Assembly: GCF_003148625.1 (NCBI RefSeq) | Contig: NZ_QGGO01000004.1 | Location: 1-61,489 of the forward strand | DNA: 61,489 nt | From: Arcicella aurantiaca | GTDB taxonomy: Bacteria > Bacteroidota > Bacteroidia > Cytophagales > Spirosomataceae | Direction: 5' to 3' | In this document: piece after piece, positions 22,358-40,499 of the stretch | How positions within the stretch are numbered: the stretch's first letter is position 1 | How the letters are laid out: each line of letters starts with the position of its first letter | The notes under the pieces: model-generated | Databases searched by the model: none | The model's input: only the letters and a program-made list of their open reading frames with translations | What the model was told of the DNA's origin: nothing | Translations under genes and position numbers: made by a program

Positions 22358-23023
22358 TTAATGAATTGAGCTATTAGATATTTCTTCTTTGGTATGGAAA
22401 TTATATCTAAATATTTCATCTACCTCTGCATTGGCTTCAATATTGATAACTTCATTAATAATTCCAGTTCTCATATCAAAAACCCAACCGTGCAAATGCG
22501 GAAAGTTACGATTTGCCCAAGCTCTTTGTACAATTGTTGTTTTAGAAAGATTTTTCACTTGTTCTTCCACATTCAGTTCAACCAATCTATCAAAACGAAG
22601 TTGCTCATCAGATACATTTTTGAGTTCATAATTATGTTTATCATAAACCTCTTTGATATTACGTAACCACTTGTTAATCAAGCCTAAATCGTCATTTCCC
22701 ATTGCTGCTTTTACACCACCACAACCATAATGACCGCATACAATTACGTGCTTCACTTTTAAAACTTCCACTGCATATTGCAAAACTGACAATAAATTCA
22801 TATCTGTATGCACCACCATATTTGCCACATTTCTATGCACAAATACTTCACCGGGTTGGGTGTTAGTTACTTCTTCGGCAGGTACACGGCTATCAGCACA
22901 ACCAATCCAGAGGAAAAGCGGTTTTTGGTCTTTTGCAAGATTTGTAAAATAATCTTCGTCTAAGTCCAAACGTTCTTTTGCCCATGCCTTGTTGGCTAAT
23001 AATAATCTGTTATATTCTTTCAT
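22358..23023 (-). CDS. can: Beta-class carbonic anhydrase
   Basis: 221 residues, cytosolic zinc enzyme interconverting CO2 and bicarbonate. The zinc and active-site residues are all present: CADSR (Cys42, Asp44, Arg46) and HYGC (His98, Cys101), with GCGGVKAAM after them. Length and motifs match the standard bacterial Can family. It lies 73 bp downstream of a SulP-family anion transporter on the same strand, a common pairing that suggests bicarbonate transport coupled to CO2/bicarbonate equilibration. Confidence 0.95.
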
Positions 23024-23096
23024 AAACTGTTATAATTTAATACTGTTATTTTTGAAATTATGGTTTAAAATGATGGATTATCCATTTGAAGATTTG

Positions 23097-24668
23097 CTAT
23101 TCTTCCGCAATTTCTTCGTATTTACTACTTTTATTTATATTTTTAAATTCTACAATCATTCCCTTCTTTTTTGCACTTTTCTTAAACTCAAAAAGAATTT
23201 TCAAGACATCATGGTCAATAAAAGTGGCTTTAGTTCCGTCTATAAAAACTTCGTCACCTTCTTCCAAAGACATTAAAATTTCTTTCATTTTAGGCTTATT
23301 CAAAAAATGAACATCTTTATTAAACTTAATTAGCACATTACGGTTGTCTCGCACAAAGGAAATAACATTCTTGAAATTGGTTCTTAAAACAAATATTAAA
23401 CCTACCAAAGTACCAATGAAAATTCCCCACAATAAGTCTTTGAAAACAATAACCAAAATGGTAATTACAAAGGGAATAAATTGGTCGAAACCTTCCTTAA
23501 AAACTTTTTTGAAAATATCTGGATTTGCTAATTTATAGCCTACCATCAACAAAATAGCGGCTAAAGCAGCCAACGGGATTTTATTAAGAATGGTAGGAAT
23601 TAAAATAACAGAAATCACTAAAAGTAAACCATGTACAATGGTTGACATTCGGGTTTTACCTCCAGAATAAACATTAGCTGACGTTCGTACTACTACTGAC
23701 GTTACGGGCAAACCTCCTAAAAAACCTGCGATAATATTACCAACTCCTTGTGCAACCAATTCTTTGTCTGATGAAGAAATCCGTTTTTCGGGGTCAAGAC
23801 TATCAGCAGCCTCTAAACTTAATAATGACTCTAAACTGGCAACAATAGCCAGCGTGATGGCTACTGTATAAATTTTGGGATTAGTTAAAAAGGTGAAATC
23901 TGGAGAAATAAGGGTGGTTGTAAAATCTGAAAAACTCTTAAACAATGGCACTGAAACCATGTGAATTGGGGAGTTTCCTAAATAATATTCTGGGCGAAAA
24001 TTGGCATACAATTCATTAATTAAAATACCTACTCCAACCGCAGCCAATGAAGAGGGGAAACTCTGAAAAAATGCGATTTTCTTCTTGGCAAGTCTATCCC
24101 AAACTATCATTAAAATCAAACAAACAATAGTAATATTGACAGCTCCATAATTAAAATCAACAAAAGAACGTATTAATTCAGTAATCGTATTCTGACTATC
24201 AGCTACTTGTTCAAATTCAAATTCTCCTTCATAATCTTGGTCGTCACCCAAAGCATGAGGAATTTGTTTCAAAATAATTACTAAGCCAATAGCCACTAAC
24301 ATTCCTTTAATAACACTATCTGGGAAATAAGCACTAAAACGACCTCCTTTCAAAAAGCCAAAGCCTAATTGTAAAATTCCTGCCAAAATTACGGCAACTA
24401 AAAACCCTTGATACGAACCTAAATCTTTAATGGCAGTAGCCACAATGATAGTTAAACCCGCCGCAGGACCACTCACAGAAATCTCAGAGCCAGATAAAGC
24501 TCCGACGATAATTCCACCAATAATTCCAGAAATTAATCCCGCAAAAAGTGGAGCTCCAGAAGCAAGGGCAATTCCCAAACATAACGGAAGGGCAACTAAA
24601 AAGACAGAAATCCCTGATTTCCAGTCTGTTTTCAATAATGATTTTTGATAATAGCTAAAGTCTTGCAT
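23097..24668 (-). CDS. SulP family anion (probably bicarbonate) transporter
   Basis: 523 residues: about 11–14 hydrophobic segments (GISVFLVALPLCLGIALASG near residue 18; SGPAAGLTIIVATAI near 66), the second-half signature LESLLSLEAAD and GNIIAGFLGGLPVTSVVVRTSANV, then a cytoplasmic STAS-like tail (about 430–510; VFIDGTKATFIDHDVL). SulP proteins carry sulfate, bicarbonate or other anions. The carbonic anhydrase gene directly downstream argues for bicarbonate. Upstream is a nested repeat element; no clear promoter box was found. Confidence 0.92.
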   Translation of the reverse strand: MQDFSYYQKSLLKTDWKSGISVFLVALPLCLGIALASGAPLFAGLISGIIGGIIVGALSGSEISVSGPAAGLTIIVATAIKDLGSYQGFLVAVILAGILQLGFGFLKGGRFSAYFPDSVIKGMLVAIGLVIILKQIPHALGDDQDYEGEFEFEQVADSQNTITELIRSFVDFNYGAVNITIVCLILMIVWDRLAKKKIAFFQSFPSSLAAVGVGILINELYANFRPEYYLGNSPIHMVSVPLFKSFSDFTTTLISPDFTFLTNPKIYTVAITLAIVASLESLLSLEAADSLDPEKRISSSDKELVAQGVGNIIAGFLGGLPVTSVVVRTSANVYSGGKTRMSTIVHGLLLVISVILIPTILNKIPLAALAAILLMVGYKLANPDIFKKVFKEGFDQFIPFVITILVIVFKDLLWGIFIGTLVGLIFVLRTNFKNVISFVRDNRNVLIKFNKDVHFLNKPKMKEILMSLEEGDEVFIDGTKATFIDHDVLKILFEFKKSAKKKGMIVEFKNINKSSKYEEIAEE

Positions 24669-25155
24669 TTATATATTTTAAAACAGCGTTTAATAATGGG
24701 TTTTGGATACTCCTCAAAATCATATCAAATCAATTTCAGGTAAAAATCCCGATAATTTCAGTTGATAATATTAATCGTTAAAACATTGGATTAGCCTTTA
24801 AAGCTTTGGGAGAAAGCATTGCACACATTTTCAGAAACTACTGACTTACAATAGTTTGCAGAAAAAAGGAGAAATTTCCTTTATCTGTACAACTTAGTAC
24901 ACTGTTTAATAAGTTATCTGGATAATTTTTATTCCAAAATCTTGTAGAACTTCCCGAAAGTAGAAAGAACTTTCGGGAAGTAGTCGAGAGGTTCACTTCC
25001 CGAAAGTTTTTTTTACCCACAATGGATATTGTTTCGGGAAGTTGAAGAAACTTATTAAACACTGTACTTAGTTTAAAGAGAATAATCGATACGTTTTATG
25101 AAGTTTTGAGCATAACGAAACTGCTTCTTTCGCAAAAAAGAAGTTTCACAACAAA
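24669..25155. other. 487-bp intergenic region dominated by a repeat element
   Basis: No gene. Most of it is the nested inverted-repeat element at 24897–25068; the rest is AT-rich without recognisable signals. Confidence 0.6.
24897..25068. repeat. Nested inverted-repeat element, copy 1
   Basis: Outer ends AGTACACTGTTTAATAAGTT (24897–24915 region) and AACTTATTAAACACTGTACT (25049–25068) are inverted repeats with one mismatch. Inside is a conserved TCTGGATAATTTTTATTCC segment and two hairpins of the ACTTCCCGAAAGT family (24948–24981 and about 24995–25043). The second copy lies at 57183–57312 with the same order of parts. Confidence 0.8.
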
Positions 25156-25512
25156 CTAAGCTCGGGGAGGAGGAATTTGTATATCGTAATGTAACTGAGG
25201 TAAAATAACAGAGAAGAAATGAAAGCGTTGTTTGGGAAGAAAAACCAATGATTCATGGTTAATCTGGGCATTGTAGGAAAAAAACGATTCAACTAAATAA
25301 TCGTCGTCTATATCATCAAAAGAATCAGATTCTGAGGTTTTTCCATTAGCGTCTGCTTCTTCCTCTTCTAAATCTACATTTTTTGTAATCCCAGATTTAG
25401 ACGTTTGTCCAATCAATTTTAAATAATAATTATCACAAATATTCATTGCAAGCAAATGCAACGAAAGCATTAGGCACAATGTTTTAAATATTTTGTAAAA
25501 TTTCGTATTCAT
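25156..25512 (-). CDS. Small exported acidic protein, unknown (1 of 3)
   Basis: 118 residues: hydrophobic signal-like N-terminus (LCLMLSLHLLAMNIC), a strongly acidic middle (VDLEEEEADANGK, then SFDDIDDDYLVE) and an aromatic/histidine C-terminus ending IQIPPPRA. Two further small exported proteins of similar size lie at 32026–32394 and 40068–40418; the third has a near-identical DDSDDDDYV segment. It follows czcA by 85 bp but a terminator lies between them, so it may have its own promoter. Similar small ORFs are often seen beside metal-efflux genes in Cytophagales. I do not know its function; metal binding by the acidic/His-rich parts is a guess. Confidence 0.7.
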   Translation of the reverse strand: MNTKFYKIFKTLCLMLSLHLLAMNICDNYYLKLIGQTSKSGITKNVDLEEEEADANGKTSESDSFDDIDDDYLVESFFSYNAQINHESLVFLPKQRFHFFSVILPQLHYDIQIPPPRA

Positions 25513-25538
25513 TTCACAAAATTGCAGATAAAAAATAA

Positions 25539-25574
25539 AAGTCCCAAGTAATTCTAATGAATTGCTTGGGGCTT
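25539..25574 (-). terminator. Terminator of the czc block
   Basis: 15-bp arms (25539–25553 and 25560–25574) with two G·U-type mismatches and a 6-base loop; on the minus strand the stem is followed by a T-rich run. It lies 23 bp past the czcA stop. Confidence 0.75.
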
Positions 25575-25597: not shown

Positions 25598-28500
25598 TTA
25601 ATGATTAATCAAATCAAAATATTTACGATAGAATCTTTCGAAGATTAACGGGAAAATAAAAAGCGTTAAAATTGTTGCTCCAATCAAGCCACCAATTACT
25701 ACAATAGCTAAAGGTTTTTGCGATTCTGAGCCAATTCCTGATGAAATTGCAGCAGGCAACATCCCGAAAATCCCCATAAAAGCCGTCATCGTAACGGGGC
25801 GAACTCTCGACTTAACACCCTCTATCACAGCCGTTTGCAGGGTCATTTTTTTCTTTATATTTTCCTTAAAAACTTCTATCATAATTACGCCATTCTGAAT
25901 ACAAATCCCGAATAAAGCAATAAAGCCAATACCCGCCGAGATACTAAAATTTGTTCCCGTTACCAATAAAGCTATCGAACCACCAATAATAGCAAATGGC
26001 ACATTGGTAAATACTAAACCCGCATCTTTTAAATTTCCGAAAAGTAAATAAAGAATAAAGAAAATACCAATCATTGAAAGTGGTACTACTTGGGTAAGAC
26101 GCTTAGTGGCACGTTGTTGGTTTTCAAAATCACCTTTCCATTTCATCTCATAACCTTTTGGTAACGAAGGAATTACCTTTAAAACTTGACTTTGGGCTTC
26201 TTCAATGGTGCTACCCATGTCACGTCCACGAACTGAGAATTTAACGGCTATAAAACGGCGAGTATCTTCTCTAAAAATCAAACTTGGTCCTGTTAAAGAT
26301 TTAATCGTTGCAATTTCTTTAATCGGGATTTTAGTACCATTCATCGTAGGAACCATCAAATTCCCAATTTCCACTTCCGACTTTCTGTAATCTGACTGAA
26401 AACGAACTCGAATGTCAAATTTACGTTCACCTTCAAACAATTGACTTGCCGTTTGCCCACCAATTGCCATTGAAACTACGGCATCAGCATCGGCAGTTTG
26501 CACACCGTACAAGTCCATTTTTTGTTGGTCAAGTTCAATTCGGAGTTCTGGTTGTCCTAAGTTTTTAATAATTCCTAAATCTTCAATTCCTTGTACTTTA
26601 GACAATGTTTCGTTTACTTTTTCGGCTTGTTTCTCTAAAAATTCAAAATCTGTTCCATAAATTTTTACAGCAATTGAACCTTTCACACCCGAAACGGCTT
26701 CTTCAACATTATCCATAATTGGTTGAGAAAAACCAAAAGTAACTCCTTGAAAAACAGACAAACGTTGTTCCATTTTTTCAATTAATTGGGCTTTTGTCAA
26801 TCCACTTTTCCATTCTTTTTGTGGGTAAATATCTACGAAAAACTCAACGTTATAAAAACCCGTTGGGTCAGTTCCATCATTCGGGCGACCAGCTTGTGAA
26901 AGCACTTTTCTGACTTCTGGATAACCCTCAAAAACCTTTCTCATTTGGTTGGCATAACGCACAGATTCGTCCAAACTGATACTTCTTGGCATATTGGCAC
27001 GTACATAAATTGAGCCTTCATTGAGTTGTGGTAAAAATTCTGTTCCGTGTAAAGAGAGCGTCCAAAAACCTACCACCGTAATGATAATTGTAGCAATGAA
27101 AGTCTGAGTTTTATGTCCAAAACAGTAATAAAAAAACTTCATTGAGTATTTCAAAATAGCGTCAACAAAGAAGTTAGACTTTTCTTTAACATTCTTTTTC
27201 ATCATCATACTAACCATTACGGGTACAAGCGTAAGTGTGAAAATTAATGCTCCGATAAGAGCCGCACCGAGCGTCCAAGCTAAAGGCGTAAACATTTTCC
27301 CTTCTACTTTTTGGAAAGCAAAAATGGGCAATAGAGCTACCAAAATAATGATTTTAGAAGTAAAAATGGCTTTTCCCATGCTTGAACCCGTCCGACGAAT
27401 CATTGAAAGTTTGGTTAAACCATTAAACTTTTCCATGCCTACTTCATGGGCTTTTTCTGCCAAAACAACCATTAAACCTTCCACTACTACCACCGTTCCA
27501 TCAATGATAATTCCGAAATCGACAGCCCCTAATGAAAGTAAGTTTACATTCATGCCCAATAACTTCAGACAAGTAAACGCAAATAATAAAGCCAAAGGAA
27601 TAATCATTGACACAATGAGTGAAGCTCGCCAATCAGCCAAGAATATCAACACGATTAAAGTCACCAAAACGATACCTTCAATTAAGTTGTGCGTAACGGT
27701 TTCAATACAAAAATCTAAAAGTGTTTGGCGATTATAAAACTCCTTAATTTTTACGCCTTCGGGCAAAATTTTAGTGTTCAATTCCTCTACTTTATCATTC
27801 AGATTTTTAATAACCTCCGAAGGGTTTTCACCTTTACGCATTACCACAATTCCCTCAACGGCATTTGAATTATTATCACGACCCACTTGCCCCAATTTTG
27901 GCAAAGCAGATTCAGAAACTGTTGCCACCGTTTTTACGTAAACAGGGACACCTTTGATATTCTGTACTAAAATATTCTCAATGTCATGGATATTGGTCAA
28001 TAAACCTATTCCACGCACTACATACGCCTGATTGTTTTTCGTGATTACGTCTCCACCAACGTTAATATTACTTTTTTGAACGGCTTGAAAAACATCTAAC
28101 GGCGTAATGTCATAATCTTGAAGCAAATTTGGATTAACACTAATTTCATACGTTTTTACTTCGCCACCAAAACTCACAATATCCGCTACACCCGGTACAG
28201 AACGAATATTTCGGTCAATTACCCAATCTTGAATTTCCTTTAATTTTCGAGCTGATAAGGTTTTTGAATCGAGCGTATATCTAAAAATTTCGCCTGTTGG
28301 CCCATACGGCGGTTGAATGTCGGGTTCAACGCCATCGGGTAAATCAATGCCTTGCAAAGCATTATTGATTTGAGTTCGAGCAAAATTATTATCTACGCCA
28401 TCATCAAACATAATGTTCACAACCGATAAACCAAACAAGGTTGTAGAGCGTACCGAAGTCTTTTTCTGAACGCCATTCATCGCAATTTCAAGCGGAGCAG

Positions 28501-28693
28501 TGACAAATTTTTCAATTTCTTCGGCACTTCTACCCTGCCATTGCGTAATAATAGTTACTTGCGTATTGGTTACGTCAGGAAAGGCATCAATGGGAGTATT
28601 CATGAAACTCAAAACACCACTTACCACAATGAGAGCCGTGAAAAAGAATACGGCAAATTTATATTTAAGGGAAAGTCCCAATAGTTTTTTCAT
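25598..28693 (-). CDS. czcA: CzcA/CusA family heavy-metal efflux RND pump
   Basis: 1,031 residues, full length for the family: an inner-membrane proton-driven trimer with 12 membrane segments and two large periplasmic loops. The intramembrane signature DFGIIIDGTVVVVEG places Asp392, Asp398 and Glu405 in the pattern typical of divalent (Zn/Co/Cd) HME-RND pumps rather than Cu/Ag ones. It is separated from the adaptor gene by a toxin–antitoxin pair in reverse orientation, leaving 38 bp between its start and the divergent antitoxin start. With the adaptor and TolC-like protein it would form a tripartite CzcCBA-type efflux system. Confidence 0.93.
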   Translation of the reverse strand: MKKLLGLSLKYKFAVFFFTALIVVSGVLSFMNTPIDAFPDVTNTQVTIITQWQGRSAEEIEKFVTAPLEIAMNGVQKKTSVRSTTLFGLSVVNIMFDDGVDNNFARTQINNALQGIDLPDGVEPDIQPPYGPTGEIFRYTLDSKTLSARKLKEIQDWVIDRNIRSVPGVADIVSFGGEVKTYEISVNPNLLQDYDITPLDVFQAVQKSNINVGGDVITKNNQAYVVRGIGLLTNIHDIENILVQNIKGVPVYVKTVATVSESALPKLGQVGRDNNSNAVEGIVVMRKGENPSEVIKNLNDKVEELNTKILPEGVKIKEFYNRQTLLDFCIETVTHNLIEGIVLVTLIVLIFLADWRASLIVSMIIPLALLFAFTCLKLLGMNVNLLSLGAVDFGIIIDGTVVVVEGLMVVLAEKAHEVGMEKFNGLTKLSMIRRTGSSMGKAIFTSKIIILVALLPIFAFQKVEGKMFTPLAWTLGAALIGALIFTLTLVPVMVSMMMKKNVKEKSNFFVDAILKYSMKFFYYCFGHKTQTFIATIIITVVGFWTLSLHGTEFLPQLNEGSIYVRANMPRSISLDESVRYANQMRKVFEGYPEVRKVLSQAGRPNDGTDPTGFYNVEFFVDIYPQKEWKSGLTKAQLIEKMEQRLSVFQGVTFGFSQPIMDNVEEAVSGVKGSIAVKIYGTDFEFLEKQAEKVNETLSKVQGIEDLGIIKNLGQPELRIELDQQKMDLYGVQTADADAVVSMAIGGQTASQLFEGERKFDIRVRFQSDYRKSEVEIGNLMVPTMNGTKIPIKEIATIKSLTGPSLIFREDTRRFIAVKFSVRGRDMGSTIEEAQSQVLKVIPSLPKGYEMKWKGDFENQQRATKRLTQVVPLSMIGIFFILYLLFGNLKDAGLVFTNVPFAIIGGSIALLVTGTNFSISAGIGFIALFGICIQNGVIMIEVFKENIKKKMTLQTAVIEGVKSRVRPVTMTAFMGIFGMLPAAISSGIGSESQKPLAIVVIGGLIGATILTLFIFPLIFERFYRKYFDLINH

Positions 28694-28731
28694 TATCTTA
28701 TTTTTATTTATATTTACTTAAAAAAAGAATT

Positions 28732-28959
28732 ATGTTACTATCAAATCGAATAACAATTGACCCTTTAATTTGCCACGGAAAACCATGTGTACGTGGCATG
28801 AGGTGGCCTGTTGAAGTAATTTTGGATATGATTGAATCAGAAATGACTTTTGAAGAAATCCTTTCCGACCATCCAGAACTTGAAAGAGAAGACATTATTG
28901 CATCTTTGAGTTATGCCAGATTATTGGTATCTGGACGTGCATTACAAAATGTTGCGTAA
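28732..28959 (+). CDS. DUF433 family antitoxin
   Basis: 75 residues with the DUF433 pattern ITIDPLICHGKPCVRGMRWPVE, MTFEEILSDHPELEREDI and SYARLL, a small DNA-binding-type fold. DUF433 proteins are antitoxins of VapBC-like modules with PIN-like DUF5615 toxins, and the partner follows directly: the stop TAA touches the next ATG. It is divergent from czcA (38-bp spacer) and encoded against the flow of the efflux operon. Confidence 0.9.
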   Translation: MLLSNRITIDPLICHGKPCVRGMRWPVEVILDMIESEMTFEEILSDHPELEREDIIASLSYARLLVSGRALQNVA

Positions 28960-29316
28960 ATGAAATTTCTCTGTGATGTTCATATATCGTACAAACTATG
29001 TAAGTTTTTTGAAAGTAAGGGCTTTGAGTGTATTCATATCAATAAGGTTCTTGAAAAATGGCATACTCCCGACAATATAATTTGTCAATATGCAGATGCC
29101 AATGATTTTGTCGTTATTACCAAAGATGAAGATTTTAGAGATAGTCATATCTTTCGTAATACACCTAAAAAACTTATCAGAATCATCTTAGGAAATATAT
29201 CAAATAAACTGATGATTGACCTTTTTGATGAATACTTACCCTTAATTCAATCCCTTGAAAACGAAGAAGCATTCTTTGTTGAAATAGGAAGTTCTTTCGT
29301 ATTATATCCCGATTAA
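28960..29316 (+). CDS. DUF5615 PIN-like toxin
   Basis: 118 residues. MKFLCDVHIS (first acidic residue, Asp6), a middle PDNIICQYADANDFVVITKDEDF (KDxDF metal-site motif) and IRIILGN are the DUF5615 PIN-like signatures. Members are predicted RNases. Its stop (29316) is one base from the end of the convergent adaptor gene (29318), so the pair fills the space between the adaptor and pump genes exactly. Confidence 0.9.
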   Translation: MKFLCDVHISYKLCKFFESKGFECIHINKVLEKWHTPDNIICQYADANDFVVITKDEDFRDSHIFRNTPKKLIRIILGNISNKLMIDLFDEYLPLIQSLENEEAFFVEIGSSFVLYPD

Positions 29317-29317
29317 C

Positions 29318-30409
29318 TCAATTATTCAAAGCATTATAAATCATCAATTGATTCTGCAACATTACTTGCTCTCCTTCATTTAAACCCTTGAAAATGTACG
29401 ACTTACCGTTGGTGGTTTGGGCAATTTGTATCTCACGGGTTGTTACGTCTTTAGGATTTTTATAAACAACCACGTAGTTTTTATTCTTATCAAAAATCAC
29501 GGCTTCGGCAGGAATTGAAACCATTTTTTTGTTTTGGTCAAAATCAACTTTAATCTGAGCAAACATTTCGGGTTTTAATAAATTTGCTTGATTTTTAAGA
29601 TTGATTCTTACATTCATTGTACGAGTTTGTGGGTCGAGAACATTGCTGATTTTATCAATTTTTCCCATAAAAACTTTATCAGGATAGGCTATCAAAGTTA
29701 CTTTTACGGGATAACCTAATTTTACTTTTGCAATATCCGACTCATAGACATTTGCTACAATTTGTACGTCTGACAAATCTGCAATGGTAAAAAATGCTCC
29801 TGTTTCCCCTTCATGATAAGCCATTTTATCAGAAATTGAGCTATTTTTTTCAACCACAAATCCAGAAATAGGCGATTTTAAGGTATAAAATGAATCTTTC
29901 ACTCCGTAAATTTTTGATACTTCGTTCGCACGATTCAACGCTCCTTTTTCTTTGGTAACATCGTTTTGAGCGAGTGTTACGTCTTTTTCTGAAGCCAAAC
30001 CTGCTTTAAATAAATCTTGCTGAACTTGTAGGTTTTTCTGTGCCGATAACAAATCTGATTTTGAGCCAATGGTCTGATTTTCAAGGTCTGCTACGTCTGT
30101 ACTATGAACAACGGCTAACACTTTTCCCTTCTGAACATAGTCGCCTAAATTGGCAGAAAGCTTTTCGATAATTCCATCTACCAAAGGTGAAACTTTTACC
30201 TGACGGTCTTCAAAAGGCATTACTTTTCCAGTTAATACAAGCGTATTTTGGACATTCTCAGATACTGCTGGAGCTAAAGACAACTCGCTTTTGGTATGTT
30301 CTGAAAGCTCCAAATTGGCATTTTCAACTTTTGCAGATTCTGTTTTTTTCGTACAAGACATTAAGCTTGTTAGAAATATGATTGAGAAGATTAATTGTGT
30401 TGTTTTCAT
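29318..30409 (-). CDS. czcB: RND efflux periplasmic adaptor subunit (lipoprotein)
   Basis: 363 residues. A lipoprotein signal ends at TSLMSC (Cys19). A membrane-fusion-protein layout follows: barrel-sandwich/lipoyl half (VKVSPLVDGIIEKLSANLGDYVQKG split about 66–90), an alpha-hairpin (about 100–155), the second lipoyl half (FYTLKSPISGFVVEKN) and a beta-barrel with PETRTMNVR-type DPQTRTMNVRI. It joins the inner-membrane pump to the TolC-like channel. It lies 157 bp downstream of the TolC-like gene, with an intergenic repeat between. Confidence 0.9.
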   Translation of the reverse strand: MKTTQLIFSIIFLTSLMSCTKKTESAKVENANLELSEHTKSELSLAPAVSENVQNTLVLTGKVMPFEDRQVKVSPLVDGIIEKLSANLGDYVQKGKVLAVVHSTDVADLENQTIGSKSDLLSAQKNLQVQQDLFKAGLASEKDVTLAQNDVTKEKGALNRANEVSKIYGVKDSFYTLKSPISGFVVEKNSSISDKMAYHEGETGAFFTIADLSDVQIVANVYESDIAKVKLGYPVKVTLIAYPDKVFMGKIDKISNVLDPQTRTMNVRINLKNQANLLKPEMFAQIKVDFDQNKKMVSIPAEAVIFDKNKNYVVVYKNPKDVTTREIQIAQTTNGKSYIFKGLNEGEQVMLQNQLMIYNALNN

Positions 30410-30426
30410 GTTTTGTTTGCCAAGAT

Positions 30427-32025: not shown

Positions 32026-32394
32026 TCAAATCAAGAATGTGCAATTCAGAACGTGGATTTTCTGATTGGCACTAATTGGGAAAGAATAATAAGGAGATGA
32101 TACGCTGCCACTAATTTCAGAGCCAGCAAAAGTTAAAAAATCTGAAGTTTGAACATCAAATGGAAAGCTAAAATGCGTTTCCGTATCTTCAGTATTTTCA
32201 TTTTCTTCAACAAAATTACAAGCCGCCACCGCAATAATGGGCGTATGTTTTTGATGATTTATTTGTAACGATAAAATGCTTTTTGAAGATTTTAGCAAAC
32301 CTTCACTCCCAGAATTTAATACGTCTTTTCCAGTTATCACTCCGATGAGTAATAACAATGAGAAGAAATATTTTTGAAAAACAGGGAGTTTCAT
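32026..32394 (-). CDS. Small exported protein, unknown (2 of 3)
   Basis: 122 residues: hydrophobic signal (FFSLLLLIGVITG), a central AVAACNFVEENENTEDTETHF acidic/His stretch (split) and a hydrophobic C-terminus ending VLNCTFLI. It has two cysteines, unlike the other two small proteins nearby, and its acidic part is weaker, so the kinship is by size, export and context rather than clear identity. It lies 190 bp upstream of the TolC-like gene, in the same direction, and has its own promoter candidate. Function unknown. Confidence 0.6.
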   Translation of the reverse strand: MKLPVFQKYFFSLLLLIGVITGKDVLNSGSEGLLKSSKSILSLQINHQKHTPIIAVAACNFVEENENTEDTETHFSFPFDVQTSDFLTFAGSEISGSVSSPYYSFPISANQKIHVLNCTFLI

Positions 32395-32440: not shown

Positions 32441-32448
32441 CAAAAGTA
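32441..32448 (-). promoter_or_regulatory. Candidate -7 box (TACTTTTG, minus strand)
   Basis: CAAAAGTA on the plus strand, 46 bp upstream of the small protein start at 32394; exact TAnnTTTG match. Confidence 0.55.
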
Positions 32449-32932: not shown

Positions 32933-34519
32933 TTATCCTTTTCGAGCAGCCAATTTATGGTCTGAAACAGGCGTATGATTTTCGTGACCAATGATAGTTA
33001 CTTTACCACCAGTAGCCGCATAATCATGCTCAAAATGGTGTAAATTTTCCATCACAGAGTGGTCAATCATACGTGTATTTTTTAGGTCGATGGTTACGTT
33101 AAATCCTGGAGGAATAGCCTCCAATTTGCTTTTAATGCCCATATAGTTACTAAAAACTGCCGATTTATCAATTTCTACTAAATATTCATCATCCGTAAAT
33201 GAAACTTCCGTAGGCGTAACAAAAAGCGTTTTTAATAAATCCCAATCAACAATATTAATCAAGATTTGTAAGACAATACCTGCGGCAATACCAACCAATA
33301 AATCTTCATAAAGTGTAAAGAAAATTGTCACTAAAAATATAGCTAATTGTTCCTTACCGATTTTGAAGGTCTGTATAAATTCTCTTGGGTGAGCCAACTT
33401 AATACCAACCGTAATCAACATGGCTGCCAAAGCAGTATTTGGAATCAATTCGATAAGATGAGAAGCCAATAATAAGAATACCAAAATGAAAAATCCGTGG
33501 AAGAAATTTGCCCAACGAGTTTTAGCTCCATTCCCCACATTTGACGAACTACGAGCAACTTCTGAAATCATTGGTAAACCTCCTAAAATAGCCGCTAAAG
33601 TATTTCCAATTCCTACCGCAATAAGGTCTTTATTTGTATCAGATTTACGACGATATGGGTCTAACATATCAATAGCTTTTACGGTCAATAATGATTCTAA
33701 TGTTCCAACTAAGGCAAACATAATTACATATTTCACAAAAACACCCGTTTGAGCAAATCCAGAAAAATCAACGTTTACTTTTACATTATCCAATAAATTT
33801 CCGATATGAACAAGGGCATAAGCAGGTTCTGTTGTTTGGAAATCCATCATTAATTCGGCAGGAATGGCAATCAATAACACTACCAAAGGAGCAGGAATTT
33901 TCTTGATTAATGGATTTTTGATAAAAGGCCAACCCAACATAATGGCTAAACTTATCACGCCAATTAATGTAGCTTTTGGGTCGAGATGCAATAAAAACTC
34001 TGGAATAGACGCCAATAATCCGAATGGACCTTTTCCTTTAGTCATGGCTGGATTTACGTCTAATAATACAGGAATTTGTTTGGCAATAATGATTAAACCA
34101 ATAGCTGCCAACATTCCGTGAATAGCTGAAAGCGGGAAGAAATCGGCTAATTTACCCAATTTGAAAACCCCAAAAAGGATTTGGACAATTCCTGCAACCA
34201 CCATTGCTCCTAAAGCTAAGTGCCAGCCTGTTTCGCCACCGCCAAATTCAGATACTGCCCCTGCTACAATGACTATTAAACCTGCCGCTGGGCCTTTTAT
34301 CGTTAAGCGAGAACCCGAAAGTAAACTCACCACAATACCACCAATGATAGCCGTGATAAGTCCCATAATTGGCGGGAATTCTGATGCTTTGGCAATACCC
34401 AAACTCAAAGGCAATGCTAATAAAAATACAATAAAGCCAGAAATGGCATCTGTCGAGAAATTCTCTTTAAGCCCTTCGATACCATCTTTAGGCAATGTTA
34501 ATTTATTTTTAATTTCCAT
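32933..34519 (-). CDS. SulP family anion (probably bicarbonate) transporter, second copy
   Basis: 528 residues with the SulP layout: FIVFLLALPLSLGIAKAS near residue 30, IKGPAAGLIVIVAGAV, LESLLTVKAIDMLDP and GNTLAAILGGLPMISEVARSSSNV, followed by a STAS-like C-terminal domain (about 435–515; FNVTIDLKNTRMIDHSVM). It is clearly related to the SulP at 23097–24668 but well diverged. It is the last gene of the dabA–dabB–DUF2490–SulP run (47 bp after the DUF2490 gene), which points to bicarbonate as substrate. The C-terminus is unusually histidine-rich (GHENHTPVSDHKL). Confidence 0.92.
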   Translation of the reverse strand: MEIKNKLTLPKDGIEGLKENFSTDAISGFIVFLLALPLSLGIAKASEFPPIMGLITAIIGGIVVSLLSGSRLTIKGPAAGLIVIVAGAVSEFGGGETGWHLALGAMVVAGIVQILFGVFKLGKLADFFPLSAIHGMLAAIGLIIIAKQIPVLLDVNPAMTKGKGPFGLLASIPEFLLHLDPKATLIGVISLAIMLGWPFIKNPLIKKIPAPLVVLLIAIPAELMMDFQTTEPAYALVHIGNLLDNVKVNVDFSGFAQTGVFVKYVIMFALVGTLESLLTVKAIDMLDPYRRKSDTNKDLIAVGIGNTLAAILGGLPMISEVARSSSNVGNGAKTRWANFFHGFFILVFLLLASHLIELIPNTALAAMLITVGIKLAHPREFIQTFKIGKEQLAIFLVTIFFTLYEDLLVGIAAGIVLQILINIVDWDLLKTLFVTPTEVSFTDDEYLVEIDKSAVFSNYMGIKSKLEAIPPGFNVTIDLKNTRMIDHSVMENLHHFEHDYAATGGKVTIIGHENHTPVSDHKLAARKG

Positions 34520-34566: not shown

Positions 34567-35358
34567 TTACTTCTTGGCAAATGAAAAATTGGTATAATAA
34601 GATAATCTAACCGTTGGGTTACTTTCTTCAATAGTATCAGTGAAATTCCAAACGTTTTGATGAATGTAACTCAACTGAATTTGATGATGCGGATTGATGT
34701 TGTACCCAAAACCTGCAATAATTCTATTCTGATTCATAAAAGTTGCTCCAACGTCTGAATCTGCATTGGGTGTTGACTTAATTGAACCCAAATTGAAAAA
34801 TGCTTCGTCGCCCAAAATCCCGAATAATTTGGTGGCTTTCTTCTCATCTTTTATCAAAGGATAATTCAATAAAAGCATATAACGAAAACGGTTTCTGTAC
34901 GCATAGCGGTCGATTGCATAGCTACCATCTGCTTCTTTTACGGCAATTCCTACGTATCTATTTTCATCTCTCAATCGGTTCGTAATTTTCAAATCTCCAA
35001 ACTGATGCGTAAACTGTGCTTGTAACCAAATATGATTTTCAGGAATGGTTGTTTTATTAATAGCAGGGCTTCCATACACATAAGTTGCATAATGCGAATA
35101 CCCTAAACTTCCAACCAAATGCTTCGTAAGCTGATAATCTATGGATGGACGAATGAAATATTGTTGTTTTTCACTGAATCCATTGGCAAATCTGGCAACT
35201 CCTTCAAGGGTGAATGACAACTTTTTAGTTAGCATATTTTTACCGAAATAATGTAACCAAATGTCATTATTTTGACTTGACGTTTGCGTATAGGTTTTTG
35301 ATGATATCGTTAACGCTAATACGCTGATAATTAAAAACTTATTTATGTGAGTTTGCAT
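34567..35358 (-). CDS. DUF2490 outer-membrane beta-barrel protein
   Basis: 263 residues from the ATG at 35356–35358, which opens directly on a signal peptide (HINKFLIISVLALTISSKTYTQ). The frame extends 11 codons further to 35391, but that stretch comes from the dispersed repeat (copy B) and would spoil the signal peptide. The body is a DUF2490 barrel: NDIWLHYFGKNMLTKKLSFTLE, RPSIDYQLTKHLVGSLGYSH, RLRDENRYVG and a final SYYTNFSF-type strand. DUF2490 proteins are outer-membrane proteins of unknown role. Its place between dabB and SulP suggests an outer-membrane step for inorganic-carbon uptake; inference. Confidence 0.85.
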   Translation of the reverse strand: MQTHINKFLIISVLALTISSKTYTQTSSQNNDIWLHYFGKNMLTKKLSFTLEGVARFANGFSEKQQYFIRPSIDYQLTKHLVGSLGYSHYATYVYGSPAINKTTIPENHIWLQAQFTHQFGDLKITNRLRDENRYVGIAVKEADGSYAIDRYAYRNRFRYMLLLNYPLIKDEKKATKLFGILGDEAFFNLGSIKSTPNADSDVGATFMNQNRIIAGFGYNINPHHQIQLSYIHQNVWNFTDTIEESNPTVRLSYYTNFSFAKK

Positions 35359-35374
35359 GAATTTTTGATTTTTT

Positions 35375-35485
35375 GTAGGAGCATATCGCATATCATTGCT
35401 ATCAACTTAAGAAATTTATCCCCTAACGCTGGCAGGATTTTGAACTCTGACAGCGTTGAAACTGGAACTATCTAAATTTTTGATA
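35375..35485. repeat. Dispersed repeat element, copy B (inverted relative to copy A)
   Basis: Reverse-complement copy of the 32671–32831 element: GTAGGAGCATATCGCATAT, TCAACTTAAGAAATTTATCC, CTAACGCTGGCA and GACAGCGTTGAAACTGGAA all match with scattered changes. It occupies the dabB–DUF2490 spacer. The two copies bracket the DUF2490 and SulP genes. Confidence 0.75.
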
Positions 35486-35505: not shown

Positions 35506-37377
35506 TTAACTACTTCTATACGCTACCTCATGCTGAGATTTTGTATGTGGTCCAATAAATACTCTTGCGTAAATTCTGATAATTGCCAAACCGTCGATAA
35601 TTAGGCTCAAAGAAACAAATGAGGCTAAGACGATTTGATTTTCATGAATATGTGTAAATATTAAATCTTCGCCCACAAATGTTGGCGTAATTGGGAAGCC
35701 CGAAATACCCAAACAGGCTAATAAAAACAAGAAAGCTAATTTTGGGTGTTTGTATGAATGTCCATGAAATTGGTCTAAGTCAATGGTGTTTTCATGCGAT
35801 TTTAGTTTTCGTAAACAGAAAAAGCCAAAAGCACCTGCCACCACAACGCCACTCAAATACAAATAGACTTGATTGAAAGTGAATAACTCATTGAACGAAA
35901 CCGCCAAAGCAATCCAAAAGTGATTCATCACCACTAAAACCCAACTCATCGTGGCACGTCTTCTTTCTGTAAACGCCTTCAAAACCATGATTAAACCAAT
36001 AGTTGCAAAAGTGACAGGCAAATACGCTTGAATAGTTGGTGAAATTAATTCTTTATGATGCACACAGAAAAGCCCCACGCCATACACAACCGAGAAGAAT
36101 ATCAAAACCCGACGGAGTGTCATGAAATTGAGTTTATTGCCTCCCCATTTCAAAGGATTCCACAATAAGCGATACATAAAAGAATCTAAATTCCATTCTT
36201 TGGTACACAAAATGTAAAAAGTGTTTTGCAATTTTTTCGAGAAAATAGATACTTCAACTGAGCTTTCATGCGGTGAAAAATTATAGAATTGTTCACGAAT
36301 CAAATAACTCGCCACCGACGGAGAAACCAATAATTGGTATGTTCTTAGAAAGGCATTTCCTGCAAAATGAAAAAGAGCTAAATTTTCAAACCCAAGAGCG
36401 ACTTCTATAAAAATTAAACCAATTTGAGAAATCGAAGCATAGGCAATTTGACTTTTCACAGATGACTGTACACGAGCAATACCCGTTGTAATAATTGCCG
36501 TAGATAAACCCAAAAGTCCGATAAGAATTCTTACAGAAGTTTGTTGTTCCCAAAAAGAGAAGGTTCTCATCAATAAAAACACGCCTAAATGCACCGACAA
36601 CGAACCATAGAAAATAGCTGTTGAAGGCGTTGGACCTTCCATTGCTCTTGGCAACCAAGAAGAAAATGGTAATTGTGCCGATTTGGCAGCGGCAGTTATC
36701 AAAATCATTAACGAAATGAAAACACCTATAAACGAATGACTTTGTAAGTGTTCGTGGACTAATTCAAAATTATTCAATTTCAAAAAAGTGATGTTTTCGT
36801 GCCATAAATGATGGCTCATCCACATAGCTAAAATCAAACCTACGTCGCCAATTCGGTATATTGAGAATACTTTCACCGCATTTTTAACGGGCAAATAACG
36901 CTCACGATAAAAAGCAATTAATAAGAATGAAGACAAACCTAAAACTTCCCAACCGATGAAAAGCGTTTCGAGATTTCCTGAGAAAATCGCTACGTTATAA
37001 CCCACATAGAAAAATAAAATGGTATTATAAAAACGCTTATAGCCAGCTTCACGGTGAAGATAATAACGGCTGTAAATAGTTACCATGAAAGTCAATAACG
37101 CTCCAACCAGAAGATAAACTATCGTGATTTTATCTAAATATAAATCCACAAAAAAGTCATATCCTGTTGTTCTGAAAACGTCAATATCTTTCACATTTAG
37201 CGTTGGACAACCTTTTATAAACCACGAAATGGCAAAAAGAATAGCACTCACTAAATGTAAACCAACCGTTCCAAATGCCACAGACGAAATAAAAGTCTCT
37301 TTTTTATCAGGAATTAATAAGCTTATTAAAAACCCGAAAACTGGCAATAATATAAAATAATTAAGTAATTGAGTCAT
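35506..37377 (-). CDS. dabB: DabB: proton-conducting membrane subunit of the DAB inorganic-carbon pump
   Basis: 623 residues, about 14–16 membrane segments, related to the NuoL/MrpA proton-channel family. Family features are FIGWEVLGLSSFLLIAFYRER (Glu in the key helix; split around residue 140–160) and AKSAQLPFSSWLPRAMEGPT near residue 235. No other complex I or Mrp gene is nearby, and dabA follows immediately upstream (11-bp spacer), so this is the DabB partner rather than NuoL. DabB supplies the cation gradient coupling that makes DabA take up CO2/bicarbonate in one direction. Membrane-embedded in the inner membrane. Confidence 0.88.
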   Translation of the reverse strand: MTQLLNYFILLPVFGFLISLLIPDKKETFISSVAFGTVGLHLVSAILFAISWFIKGCPTLNVKDIDVFRTTGYDFFVDLYLDKITIVYLLVGALLTFMVTIYSRYYLHREAGYKRFYNTILFFYVGYNVAIFSGNLETLFIGWEVLGLSSFLLIAFYRERYLPVKNAVKVFSIYRIGDVGLILAMWMSHHLWHENITFLKLNNFELVHEHLQSHSFIGVFISLMILITAAAKSAQLPFSSWLPRAMEGPTPSTAIFYGSLSVHLGVFLLMRTFSFWEQQTSVRILIGLLGLSTAIITTGIARVQSSVKSQIAYASISQIGLIFIEVALGFENLALFHFAGNAFLRTYQLLVSPSVASYLIREQFYNFSPHESSVEVSIFSKKLQNTFYILCTKEWNLDSFMYRLLWNPLKWGGNKLNFMTLRRVLIFFSVVYGVGLFCVHHKELISPTIQAYLPVTFATIGLIMVLKAFTERRRATMSWVLVVMNHFWIALAVSFNELFTFNQVYLYLSGVVVAGAFGFFCLRKLKSHENTIDLDQFHGHSYKHPKLAFLFLLACLGISGFPITPTFVGEDLIFTHIHENQIVLASFVSLSLIIDGLAIIRIYARVFIGPHTKSQHEVAYRSS

Positions 37378-37388: not shown

Positions 37389-39914
37389 TTATGCACCAAT
37401 GAGATAAACTGGGAAATTATCCTGTGTTGATTCCAATAAAGGCGTGATGTCTGAAATCTTTTGTAAGTCTTTCGTCAAAGGATTGTAGGGTACAAATTCC
37501 CCTTTTTGGAAAGAAAACAACTCTTTTGTCTCAGGATTTACCACTACCAAATTCACCCATTCATTGATAAACCATTCGTAAGTTGCGTACAAACGCTTGA
37601 TGGTATCCAAAACCACATCAGGGAAATGTTCAACGATAAAAAGGATTCTCACAGGGTCATGCACTTCAATCATTTGGCTTGGTAATCCCGGTCTTAAATC
37701 TCCATCAATTCCGTTGGCAACACCAATCAAACCCATTACGTTATGTGGCAATTTTGTTCCTGCTCCCAACTTCTGATTATCCACTCTTGAGAAATAATAT
37801 TCCAAATTGATACCTCCGCAAACTGGAGCGGCGGCTTTCATGATATTGAAAAGGTATTTTCCTTCTGGGTCGATAGAATAATCGTAAGAATTAAGGAACG
37901 AACGCCTATCCAAGAATAAGCCTTTGGTCAAATTTCTACGACCCACAATACACAAAGCATTGGTAGCATGATTTAATTCTGGACGTGGTTCAAACAAGGA
38001 AACTGAACGAATTTTGATTTTCTCATGAATCATCGCAGGAGTCAAATTCGTAGCAATTGACTCAAATCTTCTTGAACGCTCTTTGGCATTATAGTCCAAT
38101 GATTTTTCAAAAATTTTCTCGTATTTCAAATGATTCGCATAATTGGCTTCTGAAAGCAATTTTTCATCAAAAAAGGCAACTTCATCACGAGTGGTATCGT
38201 GCAATGCTCCCACAAATTGTGTTGTGTCAGGAATGTCAATACCTCTTTCTCTCAGCATAGTTCTCACTTCTGGTTTATTTGCCATTTCGCTCAATACACG
38301 TGCATTGGCAGAACCCGCACGTCCACAACAAGCACCACAATCATACGCCGCAAAGTGAGGATTATTGACACTACTTGCCCCATGACCAACCACATAAACA
38401 ATAGGAGCAAAATCTTTGACCAATCCAATACTTTTCAAAGTACCTTCTACACGGTCAACCATTTCGTTGATTTCAAAACCTACTTGTAAACCGTTTTCTT
38501 CTTGCTCATGATGTGTATGTTGTACCGTCAAGCCAGCGTGTTTGTCCATGTGTTTGAAGGACGAAGATGTTGCTGGACTCATAGATGGACGGAAAATACT
38601 ACCAAATAGTTTGACAGCCGACCAAAAACCTAAAGTCTGTGAAATCAACCAACCACTATAAAATGAATGAGAATGTTTAGAAAAGTGAAGGTCTTTTTTA
38701 AGTTTAACACCTTTAAATGCAACCTCATTTTTCTCTTTCACCAAATATTTAGGCGTTACAGGAGCTGGACAAACTTTTGTATAGAATTGACCTCCTTCTG
38801 GTTGAAAGAAAAATTCAACACCAAAGAAACCCGGTGTTCCAAAAGTCTCGCAAGAAGTATCAAACTGTTCCAAATATCGACGAATTGAACACTCTCTATC
38901 ATCAATACAAAACATTGCCTGAAAAGTAAGCTCGTGAGCAGGTTTACTTGTAGCGTTCTTTAGCTTAATTCCTGCTAAAACTTCATCATAATAAGTCCAT
39001 TCAAAAGCTTCTTGCCAAATTTTCAAGACTTTATGAACTTCAGTTTCTTCAACGTCTGCAAATAAATCAATTGGTTTATCACTCAAATTTTGAGATAAAG
39101 GCGACCAATTATTTCCACAATGAAAATCTATGGCGTCAATTTCAAGCAATAACTCAAACGTGATAGCATCTTGCAATGAAATTTTACGAGAATCCAAAAG
39201 CGTTTCTGGAAAATCTTCCACCGCAGAAACCATCCCAGACCAACCTTGATGAGCAAATTGTTGGTCGTATAAATATTGCGTATAGAGAGATTCGTCTCCT
39301 ACCAAAATTTGGAGTAAATCTTTAATTCTACAATCCGTTTTTAACAATAAATCTTTGGCTCTTTTTCCTCTAAAATAACTCGAATAGCTATTTCTCTCCA
39401 TTTCTTTGAGAGAATCTAAAAAGCCTTTATCTTTTTCTGGAAAACCCCAAATAGCAATTCCTTGGTCAAGAAAACCACAGATTATTCTAAAAAGCGTTGG
39501 ATGCACCATTGAATCCAAATCTATTTGATAAGACTTTTTCCAATTGGCTCTTAAATTCCCAATTCTTGGTAAAAAATTGGCTTCATAGGTTTCTGAAACC
39601 AATTTATTTTTCCAATTTTTGACATTACTTGCCCCAAATTTTTCTAATAAAATTTTATCAAGAACATCCTCTCTGATACGCCCTTGTGCATATAATGCTC
39701 TGTATTCATCCAACGATAAAGACACATTATACCCAAAAATTTCAGATGCTCTTCTTATGCCTTCAAAGAATTTCATATCTTGAAAAGCATGGAGTGTATT
39801 ATGATGAACAAAGTCTTTTAAAGGATTTTGAGCAGGCAAAAAATGCTTTAACTCATGAATCACTTCTTTTTCATCAAACACGTGTTTGTTGTGAGATACC
39901 GTTTTTGTACTCAT
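37389..39914 (-). CDS. dabA: DabA (DUF2309/UPF0753), zinc-dependent inorganic-carbon uptake subunit
   Basis: 841 residues, cytoplasmic peripheral protein bound to DabB. The four residues expected at the beta-carbonic-anhydrase-like zinc site are visible: FCIDDRE (Cys336, Asp338), VVGHGASS (His511) and YDCGACCGR (Cys526). The opening HELKHFLPAQNPLKDFVHHN is also characteristic. DabAB is an energy-coupled system that hydrates CO2 to bicarbonate in the cytosol; it is known from chemoautotrophs and some heterotrophs. First of four co-directional genes (dabA, dabB, DUF2490, SulP). All key residues are intact, so it should be functional. Confidence 0.93.
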   Translation of the reverse strand: MSTKTVSHNKHVFDEKEVIHELKHFLPAQNPLKDFVHHNTLHAFQDMKFFEGIRRASEIFGYNVSLSLDEYRALYAQGRIREDVLDKILLEKFGASNVKNWKNKLVSETYEANFLPRIGNLRANWKKSYQIDLDSMVHPTLFRIICGFLDQGIAIWGFPEKDKGFLDSLKEMERNSYSSYFRGKRAKDLLLKTDCRIKDLLQILVGDESLYTQYLYDQQFAHQGWSGMVSAVEDFPETLLDSRKISLQDAITFELLLEIDAIDFHCGNNWSPLSQNLSDKPIDLFADVEETEVHKVLKIWQEAFEWTYYDEVLAGIKLKNATSKPAHELTFQAMFCIDDRECSIRRYLEQFDTSCETFGTPGFFGVEFFFQPEGGQFYTKVCPAPVTPKYLVKEKNEVAFKGVKLKKDLHFSKHSHSFYSGWLISQTLGFWSAVKLFGSIFRPSMSPATSSSFKHMDKHAGLTVQHTHHEQEENGLQVGFEINEMVDRVEGTLKSIGLVKDFAPIVYVVGHGASSVNNPHFAAYDCGACCGRAGSANARVLSEMANKPEVRTMLRERGIDIPDTTQFVGALHDTTRDEVAFFDEKLLSEANYANHLKYEKIFEKSLDYNAKERSRRFESIATNLTPAMIHEKIKIRSVSLFEPRPELNHATNALCIVGRRNLTKGLFLDRRSFLNSYDYSIDPEGKYLFNIMKAAAPVCGGINLEYYFSRVDNQKLGAGTKLPHNVMGLIGVANGIDGDLRPGLPSQMIEVHDPVRILFIVEHFPDVVLDTIKRLYATYEWFINEWVNLVVVNPETKELFSFQKGEFVPYNPLTKDLQKISDITPLLESTQDNFPVYLIGA

Positions 39915-39963
39915 TGAAAATCAGCAGTTTAGAAATTAACCACAATTATTTTCGCAAACGGTT

Positions 39964-39996
39964 TTTAGCCTTATAATGTGGTTATAAGTGGCTAAA
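39964..39996. promoter_or_regulatory. Hairpin between the small exported protein gene and dabA
   Basis: TTTAGCC (39964–39970) pairs with GGCTAAA (39990–39996), and CTTATAA (39970–39976) with TTATAAG (39982–39988), around a 5-base loop, 50 bp upstream of dabA. It could be a leader hairpin, an attenuator or an operator. Confidence 0.5.
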
Positions 39997-40067
39997 CACC
40001 AAATGAAAATAACGAGAAAAGTGCTTCAACTCTTATGAATTGAAGAATAGCAAGAAATCGAGAAAAA

Positions 40068-40418
40068 TTAGCAGTGTAATTTAAGCGAGCAGTAAAGGAT
40101 AAAACGCTTTACGGAATGATTGGAAAAGGAATAAGAATATAAATGTGTGTTGGTATGTTCATCAAAAATAACAACATTTTTTGTCGTTAAAATATGTACG
40201 TAGTCATCATCATCCGAGTCGTCCGAATCTTCTTCAAGGTCAAAGTCTTCATCAGGAAATGTATCATCAACAAAAGTGCTTAACGTAGTTGGGTGATGAT
40301 TTTCGTTGACAACAACAGTCTTTTTTTCTGAAAAATTATTCGACAAATTCTTCGCTATTCCATTATTAATCAATAATAATGAGATAAGCAAAACGAATAT
40401 GTTTCTAAATTTATTCAT
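40068..40418 (-). CDS. Small exported acidic protein, unknown (3 of 3)
   Basis: 116 residues: signal peptide (NIFVLLISLLLINNGIAK), a very acidic middle (FPDEDFDLEEDSDDSDDDDYV) and a Tyr/Ser/His-rich tail ending CSLKLHC. The DDxDDDDYV core closely resembles DDIDDDYLV of the small protein at 25156–25512. It lies 153 bp upstream of dabA in the same direction, with a hairpin between, and carries its own promoter box. It is probably periplasmic or outer-membrane facing. Function unknown; recurrence next to carbon and metal transport blocks suggests an accessory or sensor role. Confidence 0.7.
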   Translation of the reverse strand: MNKFRNIFVLLISLLLINNGIAKNLSNNFSEKKTVVVNENHHPTTLSTFVDDTFPDEDFDLEEDSDDSDDDDYVHILTTKNVVIFDEHTNTHLYSYSFSNHSVKRFILYCSLKLHC

Positions 40419-40491
40419 TCAAAAAAGCCAAATTTAATACTCAGCCGATAATTTATTGTACTATTTAAAGAATGTTGATATTTTTCTAATA

Positions 40492-40499
40492 CAAAGATA
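40492..40499 (-). promoter_or_regulatory. Candidate -7 box (TATCTTTG, minus strand) for the small protein/dab block
   Basis: CAAAGATA on the plus strand is an exact TAnnTTTG match, 73 bp before the small protein start at 40418. Confidence 0.6.

Follow-up and report, generated by a model that had tools for sequence, protein, structure and literature searches.

Introduction

How is the uptake of CO2 and bicarbonate switched on in a heterotroph? To our knowledge this has been little studied, and the question is raised by the window analysed here, a stretch of 61,489 nucleotides (nt) of contig NZ_QGGO01000004.1 from Arcicella aurantiaca (draft assembly, 5.9 Mb, 70 contigs). Between positions 22,358 and 40,499, two inorganic-carbon units lie on the minus strand, dabA-dabB-DUF2490-sulP2 and sulP1-can, with a cusCBA-type resistance-nodulation-division (RND) pump in between. 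The original prediction treated these 18 kb as a single inorganic-carbon region. Its beta-carbonic anhydrase, DabA, DabB, two SulP transporters and DUF2490 protein, all on one strand, have proved correct in frame and family; the CusC-CusB-CusA pump (25598-31835) that splits the carbon units went unmentioned, and three small open reading frames (ORFs) were overlooked. These ORFs are the subject of the present work, as each of the three units (dab, cus and sulP1-can) begins with one, 116-122 amino acids long, which we call its leader (sm40068, sm32026 and sm25156, respectively). We propose, with modest confidence, that the leaders are cis-acting exported regulators of inorganic-carbon uptake and of the neighbouring RND pump, placed first in each operon.

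Results

Leaders head the carbon units in many relatives

The leaders share one plan: a hydrophobic N-terminus (in the window, judged by hydropathy and by eye), a variable middle, a cluster of acidic residues some 57 positions before the end, and a conserved C-terminus at the stop codon. The first ORF of the dab and sulP units is again of this type in many relatives. Using a profile of the last 12 residues, with the scored locus always excluded from training, a leader was found to head 51 of the 72 dab or sulP first genes but only 1 of the 173 other first genes in the same loci (Fisher 2e-34); behind that single exception come NuoL/NuoH-like genes. This p-value, like the others given here, overstates independence, because the loci were taken as the best 80 among 578 listed matches and are not independent by descent. 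The 51/72 count includes two loci titled as Planctomycetota metagenome-assembled genomes (MAGs) and leaves out two Nitrotoga loci, and the scan for dab loci may leave out records of the window's own genome. No leader was found in three loci from outside Bacteroidota (two Nitrotoga and one Azotobacter).

The same profile was also run on 358 further ORFs that begin with a hydrophobic stretch, and it gave nine of them a score over 4: six before dabA, the window's cus leader (sm32026, 13.8), one before a NuoL-like gene, and one (in L103) without a close long gene. A carbon-type leader scoring 6.9 (L042:9297-9659, minus strand) stands first before a NuoL-like and a NuoH-like gene, which diverge from dabA.

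Of the 56 leaders without a Pro-Pro (PP) end, 34 finish in I and 12 in L; F, L or I occupies position -3 in 50 of them, and 33 carry P at position -11. The genus of sm40068 has an end, FIL[YF]C[ST]LKLxC, that is two residues longer, and the PP-type end of sm25156 matches that of four SulP1 leaders. From leader to next gene the gaps are 153, 190 and 487 nt for sm40068, sm32026 and sm25156 (from coordinates) and about 100 nt among relatives. For the three window leaders, Pfam yielded nothing beyond chance (E 0.09-0.13) and NCBIfam gave no match, and a phage link considered for sm40068 was dropped as it produced no match. In the literature searched, no leader before dab or sulP was found; most subscription papers, and the supplement of the paper on the CutF protein compared below, lay outside that search.

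The C-terminus is held as a peptide

Codon comparisons indicated which part of the leader is conserved. For the dab leaders of four Arcicella-group genomes (three of the five pairs compared, those that include the window), synonymous and nonsynonymous changes numbered 13/5 in the last 14 codons as against 34/130 in the middle (p 1.7e-5). The corresponding counts for the last 12 codons were 22/26 versus 75/594 for cus leaders (five genomes) and 22/27 versus 60/269 for SulP1 leaders (four genomes); these two sets use all pairs, which are not independent. The C-terminus is thus held as a peptide, and the middle much less so.

It might be argued that the small ORFs are unimportant and that the locus is an ordinary DAB, SulP and carbonic anhydrase bicarbonate supply with a metal pump next door. 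The large genes do belong to known families, but the 51/72 versus 1/173 distribution, together with the codon constraint, makes this explanation very improbable in our judgement.

Alternatively, the leader could be an upstream ORF serving translational coupling, or part of an RNA attenuator, its peptide not being read. Gaps of about 100 nt would suit such a role, as would the strong folds predicted for all three gaps of the window (z -2.6, -3.2 and -8.0). However, the C-terminus tolerates synonymous but not amino-acid change, no Rfam family reached its gathering score in the window, and gap structure is hardly above that of controls: a fold z below -2 was obtained for 26/60 stretches from leader end to next gene and for 43/110 control intergenic regions (110 drawn from 172). 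An attenuator is therefore not favoured, and we hold the whole explanation to be improbable. Repeats (CTTCCCGAAA/TTTCGGGAAG) occur at about 24940-25050, between sm25156 and sulP1, where the whole gap gives the z of -8.0.

The acidic cluster keeps its distance from the stop codon

In the 56 leaders, 57.5 residues separate the acidic centre from the stop (interquartile range 55-61). The standard deviation of this distance was 9.1, compared with 19.8 when the middle was shuffled (minimum 16.6 in 300), in a set of 70 ORFs made up of these 56 leaders and 14 further ORFs, three TonB-receptor leaders among the latter. Nine cus leaders were measured, namely the window's and eight of the nine sampled (L133 was left out), and the centre was 50-60 residues from the end in eight and 71.5 in one. 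Within the region 47-66 residues from the end of the 56 leaders, E is enriched 2.6-fold and D 1.9-fold, while C and H stand at 0.9-fold and 0.4-fold; His is enriched 1.5-1.7-fold just before the acidic segment. Metal sensing by the carbon leaders was considered and rejected, since Cys and His are not enriched in the segment itself.

Leaders of another kind precede more distant RND genes. In 20 such loci, 12 have a small ORF directly before cusA that ends in PP[KR] plus at most five further residues, one has such an ORF further upstream and seven have none. Of the 12, three carry Cys clusters 51-54 residues from the end and nine carry His motifs at 63.5-71.5. With their PP ends, these metal leaders belong to the CutF-like type, which is already known in Bacteroidota. 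In the window's own genome, PP[KR]-ended leaders also stand directly before other cusA genes on contigs C38 and C27 (L156 and L158), the first of them Cys-rich.

Leaders and two-component pairs may replace each other before cus

The upstream DNA was read for 20 of the first 23 CusA matches from outside the window's own genome. A leader precedes cus in 9/20 of these loci, and among ORFs of at least 180 amino acids no response regulator or kinase was seen, by eye, upstream of these nine leaders. By contrast, a response regulator together with a kinase-like ORF precedes cus in 7/11 leaderless loci (Fisher 0.005). The pair is directly upstream, both partners being confirmed by Pfam, in L126, L129, L131, L132 and L134; in L136 a regulator-like ORF lies further off, by eye. 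As the leader and the two-component pair appear to take each other's place, a regulatory role of the leader is suggested, at least before cus.

This bears on the possibility that the leader, once released, serves the transporters as an ordinary small accessory protein in the periplasm, CusF-like or a scaffold. An export-like N-terminus, an acidic cluster and a conserved place in the operon are all properties that such a protein could have, and small ORFs rich in Cys or His do stand before other cusA genes. Yet a middle nearly free at the codon level, with the last 12-14 residues held and conservation ending at the stop, is not what it would lead one to expect, nor is the failure of leader and two-component pair to occur together in the cus sample. 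We consider an accessory protein unlikely.

Several observations count against the leaders being regulators. In L137 and L138, two of the seven leaderless cus loci with a pair, one or two genes separate the pair from cusB and only the regulator is Pfam-confirmed; without these two loci the one-sided chance becomes 462/15504 = 0.03. Before dab the swap is weak, as a pair was found upstream only in L037 and L053 of the 15 leaderless loci looked at. The 21 misses among the 72 carbon first genes comprise four SulP1 units with a PP-type leader, five with a small ORF that ends otherwise, and 12 without any such ORF. The dab leader of the window, sm40068, scores only -1.0 on the 12-residue profile, and a hidden Markov model of the leader run over the whole genome retrieved only sm40068 and sm32026, both of which are rows of that model. 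Signal peptides were judged from hydropathy alone. Finally, the leader gaps, with a median fold z of -1.8 as against -1.2 in controls (p 0.049), are hardly more structured than the controls.

Promoter-like elements

TAnnTTTG elements, for which the chance expectation is 0.18 per 250 nt, precede two of the leaders. Besides the one listed in Table 1, a second lies 18 nt upstream of sm40068; this leader would share a transcript with dab. A like element is also present 80 nt before cusC, within the leader-cusC gap, so that cusC may have its own promoter and would then escape the leader. No TAnnTTTG was found within 250 nt before sm25156.

The carbon genes and their arrangement

The features of the region are collected in Table 1.

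Table 1. Features of the carbon units and the intervening pump, in the order in which they are read on the minus strand
Feature	Position	Strand	Basis or remarks
TAnnTTTG promoter-like element, 81 nt upstream of sm40068	40492..40499	-	no TTG at usual spacing
leader sm40068, 116 amino acids, heads dab unit	40068..40418	-	hydrophobic N-terminus; acidic cluster DDTFPDEDFDLEEDSDDSDDDD; C-terminus RFILYCSLKLHC at stop
dabA, zinc subunit of DAB	37389..39914	-	PF10070 744 bits; 9rd0 DabA2 E 6e-60
dabB, NuoL/Mrp-like subunit	35506..37377	-	Proton_antipo_M; 9rd0 DabB2 E 2e-25
DUF2490, predicted outer-membrane barrel	34567..35391	-	PF10677 150 bits, cut-off 29.8
sulP2, anion transporter	32933..34519	-	PF00916 226 bits
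TAnnTTTG element with upstream TTG, 54 nt before sm32026	32441..32448	-	
leader sm32026, 122 amino acids, heads cusCBA	32026..32394	-	acidic cluster VEENENTEDTE; C-terminus IHVLNCTFLI at stop
cusC/tolC-like outer membrane efflux protein	30567..31835	-	PF02321
cusB-like adaptor	29318..30409	-	HlyD_D23; RND_mfp 163 bits, cut-off 95
cusA/czcA-like RND permease	25598..28693	-	TIGR00914 913 bits, cut-off 701
terminator-like hairpin and T run after cusA	25536..25571 (approximate)	-	read by eye
leader sm25156, 118 amino acids, heads sulP1-can	25156..25512	-	acidic middle; C-terminus HYDIQIPPPRA at stop
sulP1, anion transporter	23097..24668	-	PF00916 203 bits
can, beta-carbonic anhydrase	22358..23023	-	PF00484 188 bits; 1i6o (YadF) E 1e-67

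All zinc ligands claimed for the two enzymes are present: C42/D44/H98/C101 in the carbonic anhydrase and C336/D338/H511/C526 in DabA, the latter aligning with DabA2 of PDB 9rd0 and being invariant across 12 aligned DabA sequences, the window's included. A Cys-Asp-His-Cys zinc site and an adjoining NuoL/Mrp-like DabB identify the window's pair, by sequence, as a DAB system; the same type of site in a Pro_CA domain likewise marks can as a beta-carbonic anhydrase. The predicted role of the region in CO2 and bicarbonate uptake is supported by family membership for DabA, DabB and Can and is weaker for the SulP substrates. The plus strand carries a DUF5615/PIN-like ORF (28960-29316) in the space between cusA and cusB.

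The joining of DAB, DUF2490 and SulP had been put forward as an undescribed arrangement. It is a local version of a broader one in Bacteroidota, although its exact order did occur only once among the best 80 of 578 loci, in an Arcicella MAG (L036). The nearest named locus in the same set is an Arcicella MAG with a DabA that is 80% identical, and dabA was present in 13/29 genomes searched, the window's own included. In the 56 loci of at least 15 kb, SulP is within 3 kb of dabA in 39, and SulP is adjoined by a porin-like family in 19 and by DUF2490 in 7. The 80 loci contain 81 same-strand chains with dabA, several of which end at contig ends: DabA-DabB alone (35), DabA-DabB-SulP (11), DabA-DabB-SulP-porin (10), SulP-porin-DabA-DabB (7), chains with DUF2490 in three orders (5), and others (13). 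SulP occurs with the porin-like protein in 18/81 chains and with DUF2490 in 5/81. A predicted outer-membrane channel from either of two families therefore often accompanies SulP and DAB in Bacteroidota, DUF2490 being the rarer barrel, and we no longer regard the DUF2490 arrangement as the main novelty. The AlphaFold2 model of the DUF2490 protein has 11 strands (predicted local distance difference test, pLDDT, 82) and weak Foldseek matches to the Omp32 and NanC porins; the porin-like family (about 450 amino acids) shows a similarity to ExtI porins that stays under the cut-off, and its fold is like that of general porins (pLDDT 62).

The pump and carbon uptake appear to travel together, as cusCBA adjoins carbon units in several Arcicella-group genomes (L119-L122 and L130), either as sulP1-can-leader-cusC or as DUF2490-sulP2 followed by cusC. 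In the relative L119, dabB-DUF2490-SulP2 is followed by a leader and cusC, as in the window.

Carbon and sulfur metabolism of the genome

The absence of a carbon-fixation gene, as claimed for the region, holds there; elsewhere in the genome there is one RuBisCO-family protein. It was judged to be rubisco-like and is probably not carbon-fixing, because its best solved relative is the rubisco-like protein 3nwr and its neighbours look sugar-catabolic by eye. Its gene (L035:9862-11226, minus strand) adjoins what look, by eye, like a sugar-acid kinase gene and a sugar transporter gene, which may belong to an isoapionate-type pathway. The genome has one pyruvate carboxylase-type protein (PYC_OADA), no match for phosphoenolpyruvate carboxylase, and can as its sole beta-carbonic anhydrase. 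Given these genes and a RuBisCO family represented only by the rubisco-like protein, anaplerotic bicarbonate supply is the natural reading, and the structural genes most likely supply bicarbonate for anaplerotic carboxylation. The original proposal of such a supply in a heterotroph is hence plausible from gene content, with the reservation that one SulP may carry sulfate.

That reservation concerns a matter separate from the leaders. SulP1 and SulP2 are the only SulPs found in the genome, which has cysD/cysN/cysH-like genes and gave no match to SLC13 or CysT/CysW-type sulfate permease models, and this is why one of them may be a sulfate carrier. On the NCBIfam BicA model they reach 134.6 and 148.5 bits, respectively, where the cut-off is 880, and so are not assigned to the BicA type. 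On the other side, SulP1 adjoins can, and SulP recurs close to dabA in the 39/56 loci counted above. That one or both SulPs carry sulfate instead of bicarbonate is possible, but we rather doubt it.

Discussion

The leader ORFs, their position, the constraint on their C-terminal peptide, the narrow placement of the acidic cluster and the lack of two-component pairs beside the cus leader are direct observations; the export, stalling, signal and RNA steps of the following mechanism are what we infer from them. The leader would be translated and its hydrophobic N-terminus taken to SecYEG. With the ribosome at the last dozen codons, the acidic cluster would lie just across, or be crossing, the inner membrane. 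Unless a pull acts on the exported part, the conserved C-terminal residues would stall or at least delay the ribosome at the leader's end, and the length of the pause would set expression of the downstream transporter genes. The signal could be membrane potential, pH or a cation.

A more specific form of this proposal, which is speculative and which we consider unlikely on present evidence, is that the leaders, as nascent chains, gauge the voltage across the membrane or the pH of the periplasm, with transporter output tuned by the electric pull on the acidic cluster. At the moment when the arrest-like C-terminal residues occupy the ribosome, the cluster would be positioned within the electric field of the inner membrane or immediately past it. 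In the work of Ismail, the effect of acidic residues is reportedly exerted 47-49 residues from the P site. We know of no natural regulator that uses the pull of membrane potential on a nascent chain. As far as their families are known, the DAB, SulP, RND and NuoL/NuoH-like proteins behind the leaders draw on or build ion gradients. Voltage or pH is the boldest candidate signal because of the acidic cluster, these energy-linked machines and the effect of potential at SecYEG: membrane potential aids acidic residues through SecYEG and so frees SecM arrest, although it is not the sole force on that arrest (Ismail 2015, as summarised in the review PMC6028853).

If the leaders are regulators, Bacteroidota would read their carbon or energy state at the membrane from a disposable exported protein that is still being made, and sensing of the outside by nascent chains would not be confined to metals. 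The leaders would also offer a simple way to recognise regulated transporter operons throughout the phylum, and small ORFs without a Pfam or NCBIfam family would acquire a use.

Comparison with known systems

DAB/MpsAB systems in heterotrophs are already known (PMC6689103, PMC8552792). The window's pairing of a DabA zinc site with a DabB gene is that of DAB2 from Halothiobacillus neapolitanus (PMC13144422). That organism is a chemolithoautotroph, whereas the window's host is a probable heterotroph with a SulP and an outer-membrane barrel in the operon.

Near dab in Flavobacteriaceae, TonB-receptor-type genes have small leader-like ORFs (L115:6320-6724, L084:6093-6518 and one in L114 from 3537). 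The first two belong to NF047658 (HYC_CC_PP), with 150 and 144 bits. By eye, their ends look like those of the carbon leaders, but on the carbon profile they reach no more than -8.1 and -11.1, and neither the three window leaders nor two carbon leaders tested matched HYC_CC_PP (28-bit cut-off). NCBIfam gives this family no function, and no mention of it was found in the literature searched.

SecM, VemP and MifM have the plan proposed for our leaders, with an export signal, a C-terminal stalling sequence and control over a downstream gene, as outlined in the main text of PMC9973294. These arrest peptides control SecA, SecDF and YidC2, respectively, whereas arrest by the window leaders is a proposal. 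By its description in the same text, CzcI of Cupriavidus metallidurans, a small protein before czcCBA that is a suggested metal-sensing regulator without a C-terminal proline motif, is the closest analogue of the window's cus leader, which differs in having an acidic cluster. A non-PP leader before an RND pump is therefore not new in kind.

The nearest likeness for the carbon leaders is CutF of Rhodobacter capsulatus, a small exported protein, first in its operon, that acts as a nascent-chain sensor (Ozturk et al. 2023, PMC9973294). Proteins of the CutF-like type are found before RND and TonB genes as well, and Bacteroidota account for 40% (normalised) of them. The words sulfate, carbonic, DabA and DUF2309 are absent from the main text of that paper, the supplement lying outside our search. 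The clusters described there were chosen for the presence of PP and show metal sites of Cys and/or His; the window leaders have an acidic cluster instead, and two of the three lack PP while two of the three precede CO2/bicarbonate genes. At 116, 122 and 118 amino acids, sm40068, sm32026 and sm25156 are under the 150 used for CutF-like proteins. PP within the last 15 residues is found only in sm25156 (PPPRA), the carbon leaders have no Cys/His metal motif, and none of the three window leaders matches DUF2946 or another Pfam or NCBIfam family. For lack of the metal site, of the PP motif in two of the three window leaders, and of a family match, the carbon leaders are not classed as CutF-like proteins, and the stem-loop part of the CutF model gains no support from folding against controls. 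The copper site of CutF is 45 residues from its C-terminal motif and is placed by its authors in the periplasmic vestibule of SecY. In the window, too, a small ORF comes first in the operon, with one motif some 45-60 residues before the end and a special C-terminus near the stop, and the carbon leaders look as if they work like CutF-like proteins.

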